Below, piece after piece: positions 5,463-10,712 of a stretch of DNA of 64,000 bases. The DNA is from an uncultured Ulvibacter sp. (GTDB taxonomy: Bacteria; Bacteroidota; Bacteroidia; Flavobacteriales; Flavobacteriaceae), in the NCBI GenBank assembly GCA_938083445.1, contig CALKCP010000023.1, positions 1 through 64,000 on the forward strand. The letters run 5' to 3'. The notes under the pieces are model-generated. The model saw only the letters and a list, made by a program, of their open reading frames with translations, did no database searches and was not told where the DNA came from. The first letter of the stretch is position 1, and the number at the start of each line of letters is the position of its first letter. The translations under genes were made by a program, and so were the position numbers.

Positions 5463-6161
5463 TCATTGCTTTAGCCGATCTATCATTTTATTTAAATCAT
5501 CAATATTCTTAAGCCCAGGTGCTGTTTCGAACTTGCTATTTACATCAATTGCGTGCAAAGGAAGCTTCGTGTTCACTATTTTTTTTAGATCTTCAATTTC
5601 TCCCAAACCAATCCCACCACTCAAAATGAATGGTTTTTTTGAAGGATATTTATTTAAAATTTCCCAATTAAAAGCATAGCCATTTCCTCCTTTGTCTTGT
5701 CCTTTTGTGTCGAAAAGGTACTTATCTACAACATGTTCAAACGCCTCCAATACGTCAAAATTGAAGCTGTCTTTTACGCCAAACACTTTCCATATTTCTA
5801 CCCTGTCTGTCGGCAGGCAAGGTCTTCTTAGTGCAGGCGCTTCTAACTGCCCTGATACAGGTGTTTCTTTAGCTTCATTTCGAAAATACTCTTTTAGTCT
5901 TTTGCAGAATTGGGGCGTTTCTTCACCGTGCAACTGCACGACATCAAGCTTGTATTTGTTTGTTTTCTCTAAAATTTCTTCGATGGAGGCATTTACAAAT
6001 ACGCCAACTTTTAAAATTCCGGATGATAGCTCAGGAATTTTACCATTAAAAAATCGGGGGCTTTTATTGTAAAATATAAAACCGAGGTAGTCTGTCTGAA
6101 GTAAAGCAACTTCAGAAGTATTCAGATTCATACCACAGATTTTTAATTTTATTTTCCTCAT
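5463..6161 (-). CDS. trpF: Phosphoribosylanthranilate isomerase with a repeat-derived in-frame insert
   Basis: Amadori isomerase, third step of Trp synthesis. The family core is intact: 'KICGM' with the catalytic Cys near residue 9, 'GFIFYNKSPR', 'VQLHGEE', 'LFDTKG', 'GGNGYAFNW' and 'LSGGIG'. At 232 residues it is about 25 longer than typical TrpF. The extra residues sit at about 94-119, between 'CKRLKEYF' and 'IWKVFGV', a surface loop position in this TIM barrel. The DNA of the insert includes an imperfect palindrome (5800-5823) related to intergenic repeats elsewhere in the window. The frame is kept and there is no stop, so the enzyme is probably functional. It overlaps trpC by 4 nt. Confidence 0.93.
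   Translation of the reverse strand: MRKIKLKICGMNLNTSEVALLQTDYLGFIFYNKSPRFFNGKIPELSSGILKVGVFVNASIEEILEKTNKYKLDVVQLHGEETPQFCKRLKEYFRNEAKETPVSGQLEAPALRRPCLPTDRVEIWKVFGVKDSFNFDVLEAFEHVVDKYLFDTKGQDKGGNGYAFNWEILNKYPSKKPFILSGGIGLGEIEDLKKIVNTKLPLHAIDVNSKFETAPGLKNIDDLNKMIDRLKQ
5800..5823. repeat. GC-rich palindromic repeat inside trpF
   Basis: This 24-nt imperfect inverted repeat folds into a hairpin with G-T wobbles (core CTGTCTGT-CGGCAGGCA). It aligns with the intergenic palindrome at 43892-43913 over about 22 nt, with differences mainly transitions, and its core resembles CCTGCC-ATCC-GGCAGG at 16421-16436. It encodes the C-terminal part of the extra loop of TrpF. Confidence 0.65.
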
Positions 6162-8505: not shown

Positions 8506-9933
8506 CTAAATATTTTCAGCGAGTTCTAGTGCCTTTGTAAGCGCACCTAATTTATTATATACTTCTTGTAATTCTTTTTCTGGGTCACTTCCCGAAACAA
8601 CACCGGCTCCAGCTTGATAGTGCAAGCTATGATTTTTACTCACAAAGGATCGAATAATAATGGCATGATTGAAATCACCTTCAAAATCCATAAAGCCAAT
8701 GGCACCTCCGTAAAATTCACGATTTACATTTTCATATTCTTCAAGTAATTGCATGGCTTTGTGCTTTGGAGCACCACTAAGTGTGCCAGCCGGAAATGTA
8801 TCAGCGACAATTTGCATTGTAGGGGTTTCAGGGTTTTTTGTCGCTGCAACCTTACTAACCAAATGTATTACATGCGAGAAAAACTGAACTTCACGATAGG
8901 TTTCCACTTCCACATTGCTACCATGCCTACTTAAATCGTTTCTTGCTAAATCGACCAACATTACATGCTCGCTGTTCTCTTTCTTGTCGGCTGCAAGTTC
9001 TTTAGCGAGTTTTGCGTCGTCAAGATCATTGCCTGTGCGCTTAAATGTTCCTGCGATGGGATGAATCTCGGCACGACTCCCTTTCACAATCAACTGCGCT
9101 TCCGGAGAGCTACCAAATATTTTAAACTTTCCGTAGTCAAAATAGAAAAGATAAGGAGAGGGGTTAATGCTTCGTAGCGACCTATAGACATTAAATTCGT
9201 CGCCTGTAAAACCTTGCAAGAAACGTTTGCTGGGTACGATTTGAAAAACATCACCACGTTGACAGTGTTCTTTACATTTCTTCACCAAATCCTTAAAACC
9301 TTGGTCGTCTAAATTCGTTGTTGGAGCGCCATTTCGTTGGAAGGGATATTCGGCAAAGTTCTTCGATTTTAATAGTCTTTCAATTTGAGGAATATTACTT
9401 TCAGAATTATAACAATGTGCAAAGATATACGCTTCGTTGTTGAAATGGTTTATCGCAATAATATTTTGATAGACGGCATAATAAATATCGGGAATTTCTA
9501 GAAGGGATTTCGATTTTGAAATTTCAATGTCCTCAAAATAGCGAACTGCATCGTAAGCGATATAACCGAAAAGACCGTTATTGATAAACTTAAAATCATT
9601 TTTACTAGAAGAAAAGGAGCCTGCAAAACTTTCCAAAACCGATGGTACATTCGTTGACGTATCGCCTGAAGACCCTTTGGAGGTTGTTTTCGACACCTTC
9701 GATATTTGTTCTTTTCCGTCGGGAAACTGTTGTGTAATTACTTCATTTTGAATGTTTATTGAGGCAATTGGATTGCAGCATATATAACTAAAGCTATTGT
9801 CGTTGGCATGATAGTCGCTGCTTTCCAACAGCAGGCTATTTGGAAATTTATCACGTATACGCAGGTAAACCGACACCGGTGTTAAGGTGTCTGCCAATAG
9901 TTTTTTTGAATGAGTATGTAATTGATATTTCAT
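8506..9933 (-). CDS. trpE: Anthranilate synthase component I
   Basis: 475 residues from the ATG at 9933. It converts chorismate to anthranilate with ammonia from TrpG. The C-terminal chorismate-binding domain has 'IFGSSPEAQL', 'HPIAGTFKRTG', 'EHVMLVDLARNDLSRHG', 'AGTLSGAPKHKAMQLLEE' and 'AGAGVVSGSDPEKE'. The N-terminus shows 'LLLESSDYHANDNSFSY', the region that carries the Trp feedback site in the family. The open frame runs to 10002, but a start there would put the attenuator hairpin inside the gene; the ATG at 9933 has the expected A-rich upstream sequence. Confidence 0.96.
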   Translation of the reverse strand: MKYQLHTHSKKLLADTLTPVSVYLRIRDKFPNSLLLESSDYHANDNSFSYICCNPIASINIQNEVITQQFPDGKEQISKVSKTTSKGSSGDTSTNVPSVLESFAGSFSSSKNDFKFINNGLFGYIAYDAVRYFEDIEISKSKSLLEIPDIYYAVYQNIIAINHFNNEAYIFAHCYNSESNIPQIERLLKSKNFAEYPFQRNGAPTTNLDDQGFKDLVKKCKEHCQRGDVFQIVPSKRFLQGFTGDEFNVYRSLRSINPSPYLFYFDYGKFKIFGSSPEAQLIVKGSRAEIHPIAGTFKRTGNDLDDAKLAKELAADKKENSEHVMLVDLARNDLSRHGSNVEVETYREVQFFSHVIHLVSKVAATKNPETPTMQIVADTFPAGTLSGAPKHKAMQLLEEYENVNREFYGGAIGFMDFEGDFNHAIIIRSFVSKNHSLHYQAGAGVVSGSDPEKELQEVYNKLGALTKALELAENI

Positions 9934-9970: not shown

Positions 9971-10009
9971 AAAACAAAAAAAAGGCTTGTCGTGATTGAC
10001 AAGCCTTTT
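9971..10009 (-). terminator. trp attenuator terminator
   Basis: On the minus strand an 11-bp perfect stem (AAAGGCTTGTC with its complement, 6-nt loop) is followed by a run of eight T, then GTTTT. It lies between the Trp-rich leader peptide and trpE, 40 nt before the trpE start, where an attenuator terminator is expected. Confidence 0.9.
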
Positions 10010-10036
10010 GTATATTTATACCAATAGTGCTTTAGC

Positions 10037-10093
10037 TCACGAAGTTTGACGTAAGGTTTTCCACCACCAGGTATTTGTATTTATTGTTTTCAT
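10037..10093 (-). CDS. trpL: trp leader peptide (three consecutive Trp codons)
   Basis: The ORF has 18 codons plus TGA and reads MKTINTNTWWWKTLRQTS. Three adjacent TGG codons sit at positions 9-11. Its stop is 28 nt before the terminator stem, and it is immediately upstream of trpE on the same strand. By the known logic of trp leaders, a ribosome stalled at the Trp codons when charged tRNA-Trp is scarce would prevent the terminator from forming. The competing antiterminator pairing is not obvious by eye; only a 4-bp AAGC/GCTT match between the spacer and the 5' arm was found. Confidence 0.88.
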   Translation of the reverse strand: MKTINTNTWWWKTLRQTS

Positions 10094-10117
10094 ATTCTAA
10101 TTGTCAAATATATAAAT

Positions 10118-10125
10118 CAAATTTA
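10118..10125 (-). promoter_or_regulatory. Candidate -7 element for the trp operon
   Basis: TAAATTTG on the minus strand fits the Bacteroidota -7 consensus TAnnTTTG and would place the transcript start roughly 20 nt before the leader peptide ATG. A weak ATTG lies 17 nt upstream. A second match, TATATTTG at 10105-10112, would leave almost no 5' UTR. Confidence 0.4.
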
Positions 10126-10145: not shown

Positions 10146-10712
10146 TTAAAATTTCATCATAACATTTAGGTCAAAATTGTTTGAGATAGCCTTGTCGCCC
10201 AAATCATCAAAGAAATCTCCCGATCCATACTTAATTCCGTATTTCGTGCGATCAATAACAACCGTTGCCGTAGCTTCTAATTCACCCATTTCGATTTGAA
10301 AATTAACGGTTTCAGTAATTCCTTTTATAGTAAAGGCACCCACAACGTTATAGGTATTTCCTGTTTTTTTAGACTCTTTAATGTTCAATGTAGCTGTTGG
10401 AAATTCTGCCACATTAAAGAAATCCTGACTTTTTAAATGCCCTTCTAGGTTTGCTCGACTACCTCCTTCAAGATCGGTATTTTTAAGTGATGTCATATCA
10501 ACTACAAACATCCCGCCAGTCAAGTTATCTCCTTCCATTTCGAAGTAACCGCTTTTGAGATCAAGCGTCCCTTCGTGCGAACTTAAAATTTTCTTTCCTG
10601 TCCAAGTAATACTGCCTTCTTTTATCTCTTTTCTTTCAATTGCATCGTTTGTAAAAGCCGAACCTATTGTTATTACAGCTAAGAGTACTAGTGTCTTCAT
10701 TGTTGTTTTCAT
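10146..10712 (-). CDS. YceI-family periplasmic protein
   Basis: 188 residues with a signal peptide (MKTTMKTLVLLAVITIGSAF). The mature part has YceI features: 'GSITWTGKKILSSHEGTLDLKSG', 'MTSLKNTD...NLEGHLKSQDFFNVAEFPTATLN', and 'GAFTIKGITETVNF'. YceI proteins form a lipocalin-like barrel that binds isoprenoid-type lipids; the substrate here cannot be read. It sits 23 nt downstream of a MarR regulator on the same strand, so the two are likely co-transcribed and this gene is the likely regulated target. Two in-frame ATGs lie four codons apart at the start. Confidence 0.9.
   Translation of the reverse strand: MKTTMKTLVLLAVITIGSAFTNDAIERKEIKEGSITWTGKKILSSHEGTLDLKSGYFEMEGDNLTGGMFVVDMTSLKNTDLEGGSRANLEGHLKSQDFFNVAEFPTATLNIKESKKTGNTYNVVGAFTIKGITETVNFQIEMGELEATATVVIDRTKYGIKYGSGDFFDDLGDKAISNNFDLNVMMKF

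Follow-up and report, generated by a model that had tools for sequence, protein, structure and literature searches.

Upstream of trpE, on the minus strand of the window (the whole stretch of 64,000 nucleotides analysed, from a contig of an uncultured Ulvibacter sp.), lies what its sequence indicates to be a genuine trp attenuator and an ordinary member of the known RNA family RF01692 (Bacteroid-trp), with a probable role in regulation. We consider it probable, at about 0.85, that this Bacteroid-trp attenuator is worked by the translating ribosome, with an antiterminator in which UCGUGA pairs with UCACGA (Table 1). The first-pass annotation of this DNA had proposed ribosome-mediated trp attenuation; this is still the best reading, with two corrections: attenuation of this kind is known in the phylum, and an antiterminator is present.

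Table 1. Features of the trp leader region in the window; structures and regulatory roles are predicted.
Feature	Position	Strand	Basis or detail
-7 promoter element TATATTTG (TAnnTTTG), putative	10105..10112	-	kept in family leaders
Leader peptide ORF MKTINTNTWWWKTLRQTS, stop TGA included	10037..10093	-	ATG 10093, TGA 10037, 18 codons
Three Trp codons TGG TGG TGG, putative stall site, also in 5' arm of 1:2 hairpin	10061..10069	-	sequence, fold
1:2 hairpin (anti-antiterminator), predicted	10018..10074	-	MFE; corresponds to structure modelled by RF01692
Antiterminator helix B, 5' strand UCGUGA, contains stop codon; predicted	10037..10042	-	fold, conservation, comparison
Antiterminator helix B, 3' strand UCACGA, covering the final 4 bases of the loop and the initial 2 of the terminator 3' arm; predicted	9990..9995	-	fold, comparison
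Antiterminator inner helix, 5' strand AAGC-a-CU-a-UUG, candidate	10022..10032	-	MFE
Antiterminator inner helix, 3' strand CAA-a-AGGCUU, overlapping terminator 5' arm, candidate	10001..10010	-	fold
Intrinsic terminator, 12-bp stem, 6-nt loop, 8 T; predicted	9976..10009	-	sequence and fold
trpE, anthranilate synthase component I	8506..9933	-	TIGR00564 2.7e-123, 412 bits, under curated cut-off 517.7

The 18-codon ORF with three consecutive TGG upstream of trpE was found as first annotated. Between its stop and the next hairpin there are 27 nt; this hairpin is made, on the minus strand, of AAAAGGCTTGTC (10009-9998), the loop AATCAC (9997-9992) and GACAAGCCTTTT (9991-9980), with a run of 8 T from 9983 to 9976, and sequence and fold together predict an intrinsic terminator between the leader ORF and trpE. 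The annotated hairpin with its T8 tail is thus retained, except that the stem counts 12 bp, not 11, when all A-T pairs are included. From the stem to the trpE ATG (9933) there are 46 nt. Leader and terminator fold with a z of -5.2 to -5.5, none of 200 shuffles being as good. In the 1:2 hairpin, AUACC and GGUGGUG (10074-10062) pair with CACUAUU and GGUAU (10029-10018), enclosing CUUACG (10055-10050) paired with CGUGAG (10041-10036). The gene trpE is the first of an operon in the order trpE-G-D-C-F-B-A, reaching down to 3352, and a YceI-like gene (8.6e-11, under its model's cut-off) ends just upstream of the leader, at 10146. We also observed that trpF (5463-6161, minus strand) carries an insert of some 25 residues, in frame, around NEAKETPVSGQLEAPALRRPCLPTDR (about 5802-5879); several TrpF profile matches are interrupted there (about residues 90-121), and no second copy of the insert DNA was found in the source genome.

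The match to RF01692 scores 67.9 bits, for a gathering score of 49, over model positions 1-131 of 131, and is the single one in a scan of the source genome. Besides the score, the 1:2 hairpin bearing the Trp codons and the place upstream of a trp biosynthesis gene are found here, and the element is the same as that of the family: a WWW ORF with a 1:2 hairpin, upstream of trp genes in Bacteroidetes. The Rfam model pairs the 1:2 hairpin alone and ends at GGCUUGUC, inside the terminator, so that it comprises neither terminator nor antiterminator; its 5' end overlaps the -7 box in the window. The attenuator is therefore not the news for the phylum that the first-pass annotation made of it: RF01692 appears in Table 1 of Weinberg et al. 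2010 (PMC2864571), whose main text names the family once, and a 2019 paper (PMC6414381) likens the Bacteroid-trp leader of F. psychrophilum to the E. coli leader. As to the antiterminator identified here, we did not meet it in print among the open-access literature searched: the full texts, including PMC4833913, PMC8305728 and PMC10994844, gave no description of one and no experiment on this leader.

Matches to RF01692 occur in 208 of the 299 genomes of the window's own family, Flavobacteriaceae, in 62/118, 29/101 and 12/101 genomes of the families numbered f12, f11 and f3, in 21/100 of the sister family f2, and in 19/247 of a class sample (E 0.01) and 42/395 of a phylum sample; the samples overlap, and stricter filters lose weak matches in the large ones. 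These counts underestimate the family, since loci without a Rfam match carry the leader too. TrpE is present in 289 of the 299 genomes, and 130 loci were chosen by trpE from the listed rows, mostly passing over genomes already represented as Rfam loci (a non-random sample). An ORF with WW or WWW and a terminator precede trpE in 129 of them; in the remaining one, L155, the contig ends within the locus, with TGGTGGTGG and a terminator still visible. Twenty of these 130 loci come from genomes without a Rfam match: all 20 have ORF and terminator, and 19 the CGTGA core described below. The conservation of the Trp-codon ORF and of the terminator upstream of trpE, which the first-pass annotation had proposed to look for in Flavobacteriaceae, is thus established for this set. 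Over all loci scanned, the WW or WWW ORF was present in 182/186, and the 175 distinct family leaders have WWW in 170 cases and WW only in five. Among 80 named records also chosen by TrpE, the automatic finder gave ORF and terminator in 76, one of them (L359) spurious through N masking; three others are cut by contig ends, and one, L324, was missed by the finder, although TGGTGGTGG, GTCGTGA and TCTCACGAC are present on reading. These 80 are not an independent set, because 14 of them are probably the same contigs as genomes of the family sample.

The first-pass annotation had stated that a competing antiterminator was not evident. One nevertheless exists, consisting, according to folding and comparison, of helix B (UCGUGA with UCACGA) and of a weaker inner helix. 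The segment 10044 to 9988, which mimics a ribosome sitting on the Trp codons while the terminator 3' arm is just emerging, folds into it with -14.3 kcal/mol (z -3.5, none of 200 shuffles as good). The inner helix by itself was considered as the antiterminator and rejected, as it folds like shuffles (z 0.15); in the models it is weakly supported. In stalled-state folds, 262 of 277 leaders form helix B with at least 5 bp; when the upstream sequence is shuffled, 227 of 1108 do. The inner helix, with at least 4 arm bases paired, is formed by 257 of 277 real leaders, but also by 741 of 1108 shuffled ones.

Pair probabilities computed for growing transcripts of the window leader depend on where the ribosome is. 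For a ribosome placed on the second or third Trp codon, helix B keeps a probability of 1.00 up to the point where 6 nt of the 3' arm have emerged; this drops to about 0.35 at 8 nt and to 0 once the transcript is complete. For a ribosome on the first Trp codon the values are 0.98 at 6 nt and 0.01 at 8. When the ribosome is at the stop codon helix B stays at 0 throughout and the terminator is already at 0.97 at 4 nt. Without a ribosome, UCGUGA remains in the 1:2 hairpin (about 0.8-1.0), helix B reaches at most 0.19, and the terminator wins. In silico, then, the antiterminator forms only with the ribosome stalled at the Trp codons, and the folding that the first-pass annotation had suggested gives an antiterminator for the stalled ribosome and a terminator for the finished or absent one. 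Because the terminator prevails at full length in all ribosome states, a switch of this kind has to be kinetic.

This suggests the following course, in which the stalling, the termination, the Trp response, the transcription start and the ribosome footprint are all deduced. Transcription would begin a few bases ahead of the leader ORF. A shortage of charged tRNA-Trp would make the ribosome stall at WWW, open the 1:2 hairpin and free UCGUGA, which could then pair with the loop of the terminator and the first part of its 3' arm as the polymerase makes the terminator; the polymerase hides the last RNA bases, so that the antiterminator would have its chance during the decision. The inner helix would meanwhile hold the terminator 5' arm, and the polymerase would continue into trpEGDCFBA. 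In Trp excess, a ribosome that has arrived at the stop codon would cover UCGUGA and the terminator would fold; without any ribosome, UCGUGA would be sequestered by the 1:2 hairpin, with the same outcome. The first-pass annotation had envisaged a different switch, by ribosome occlusion of the region between leader and stem. The occlusion is kept here, but not as something separate from the antiterminator switch, because the stretch to be hidden is the antiterminator 5' strand itself.

In the trpL leader of E. coli, a leader peptide with tandem Trp codons and mutually exclusive structures make the position of the ribosome the signal, and the present element shares these three features. It would differ in that its antiterminator grips the loop and 3' arm of the terminator as well, and in that the leader start has no Shine-Dalgarno (by eye) and probably a very short 5' UTR. 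The Rfam matches up to E 1 at the leader comprised no other trp leader model, only a Thr_leader far under its cut-off.

The core of helix B is under strong constraint in Flavobacteriaceae: CGTGA is found in 173 of the 175 distinct leaders, in frame 1 of the ORF in 122, in frame 2 in 34 and after the stop in 17. A sequence kept in two reading frames or beyond the stop points to a constraint on the RNA, not on the peptide. In 174 of the 175 leaders, all those in which it was located, the core starts 26-28 nt downstream of the first Trp codon, while the stop codon lies anywhere from 11 nt before to 8 nt after the core start. In 173 of these 174 the core is wholly within stop-20 to stop+14, where a terminating ribosome, given the footprint assumed, should cover it. 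The two leaders without CGTGA behave differently: L077 is compensated (GTCGTAAG faces CTTACGAC, the change being GUAA:UUAC), and in L166 the pairing is broken. In the named set, read by eye, TCGTGA goes with TCACGA exactly in 62 of 76 records. The 14 others are three Dokdonia records with TCGTAAG and a complementary TTACGA, L309, L311 and L361 with one G-U pair, L320 with a changed but paired variant, six records that lost one end pair (L316, L329, L332, L335, L340 and L360) and the masked L359. As L077 may share a clade with Dokdonia, the compensation within the family may be a single event; and with a core nearly invariant, most rows are without covariation.

For a wider comparison, 236 distinct leaders from f1, f11 and f12 were aligned with MAFFT. 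The five central pairs of helix B are formed in 232/235, 234/235, 235/236, 236/236 and 235/236 rows, the fifth as G-C in 179, A-U in 49 and G-U in 7; the sixth is formed in 219/235, and two flanking pairs in only 134/235 and 127/224. Altogether 88.2% of the cells are paired, a modest excess over shuffles (mean 85.2%, maximum 86.1%), with 20-54% for slid partners; since the rows are related, these pairing counts are to be taken as support, not as a probability. Judging from the sequences, compensated changes occur within the window's own family (Dokdonia) and in f11 and f12. In f2 several leaders carry GUUGGUUC:GAACCGAC at the same offset, a different but complementary pair. When narrow leader and loop segments were folded, at most 5 of 100 shuffles were as good in 173/177 leaders of f1, 20/30 of f12, 26/29 of f11 and 15/21 of f2, so that 10, 3 and 6 leaders of the last three families missed this mark; it was reached by 4/15 leaders of f3 and by none of the five of f69, f60 and f90 together. 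The pairing of f1 with its own loops averages -10.0 kcal/mol, versus -4.2 to -7.7 with the loops of other families, and the loops of f11 and f12 are interchangeable, as expected from their shared motif; a swap with wider segments was noisier, shuffles of f11 and f12 scoring well too. The support for helix B is thus good in f1, f11 and f12, and in much of f2. Six f2 leaders (L272, L275, L277, L278, L282 and L284) have WWW without a complement of helix B, possibly with a different antiterminator.

Other results count against the helix B reading: f3 pairs better with foreign loops (own -4.8, f12 loops -7.8 kcal/mol), and so does the single f90 leader (own -6.4, f1 loops -10.6 kcal/mol). The strongest complementarity in f60, f69, f90 and most of f3 is to the 5' arm and loop, the ordinary form of an antiterminator, and the sequences of these four families do not display the loop and 3'-arm form. 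Outside the window's own family the loci had been selected by means of Rfam; its model covers the leader strand but stops before the loop. The leaders of f60, f69, f90 and most of f3 favour a plain attenuation of E. coli type, with an antiterminator on the terminator 5' arm only, UCGUGA:UCACGA being incidental; the inner helix in the stalled-state fold of the window (AAGC.CU.UUG with CAA.AGGCUU) goes in the same direction. On the other hand this helix alone does not differ from shuffles and is common by chance, while UCGUGA:UCACGA is near-invariant, independent of frame and in places compensated. We find this explanation improbable for the window.

A still smaller chance is left to a kissing interaction, in which UCGUGA would bind the loop of the terminator once formed, as a pseudoknot aiding termination. 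Four of the six pairs (GUGA:UCAC) do fall within the 6-nt terminator loop of the window, so that both structures could coexist there. But the U-A and C-G pairs that extend into the 3' arm are kept, and of the 59 leaders of f11 and f12, 47 have a 4-nt loop and 55 a best helix that includes at least 4 bases of the 3' arm: with so short a loop and a helix entering the arm, helix and terminator are mutually exclusive in these families. Finally, a leader sensed not by the ribosome but by a protein (TrpR- or TRAP-like) or, through a T-box, by tRNA is hardly credible: the inverted repeat TCGTGA...TCACGA could in principle be a protein site, but the Rfam scan of the window at gathering score gave only RF01692 at the leader and no T-box, and a WWW that is in frame and keeps a constant distance to the switch strand fits a ribosome.

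The promoter probably lies very close to the leader ORF. Of the 175 distinct family leaders, 171 have TAnnTTTG in the 60 nt preceding the leader start, compared with 6.5% of shuffled stretches, and in 143 of the 171 a TTG lies 17-21 nt before this box; in the window the -33 element is degenerate. Another candidate, TTG-N17-TAAATTTG (10145-10118), was dropped, as relatives keep TATATTTG instead. With a gap of 11 nt between box and start codon in the window, transcription would start at about 10100-10099, leaving a 5' UTR of about 6-7 nt. This gap is 4-5 nt in 41 of the 171 family leaders and 10 nt or less in 73. For F. johnsoniae, PMC6847099 describes probable promoters with 4-5 nt from box to start, and leaders longer than 10 nt in 87% of the predicted transcripts; the 41 leaders with such a gap therefore suggest that about a quarter of the leader mRNAs are leaderless.

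Taken together, we lean towards a more general statement: in the Trp attenuators of several Bacteroidia families, the antiterminator would engage the terminator loop and 3' arm as well as the 5' arm, which the Rfam model does not show; the 5' strand of this antiterminator would stand at a fixed "ribosome-ruler" distance from the Trp codons, with the stop codon shifting around it, and about a quarter of the examined Flavobacteriaceae leaders would have their peptide made from a leaderless or nearly leaderless transcript. Attenuation requires that the ribosome keeps pace with RNA polymerase. As the phylum is described as naturally without Shine-Dalgarno starts (PMC6847099), and as the switch is nevertheless found at 129 of the 130 trpE loci of one family, coupling must persist at least here. 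With the strands named above, the one-sided Rfam model becomes a switch that can be tested by point changes.

Two variations of the leader ORF may be mentioned. L322 and L324, both Leeuwenhoekiella, seemingly have extra sequence between the candidate start codon and WWW, with TGGTGGTGG, GTCGTGA and the terminator kept. In L062 and L063, from two genomes close to that of the window by TrpE, the third Trp codon is a His codon (WWH).
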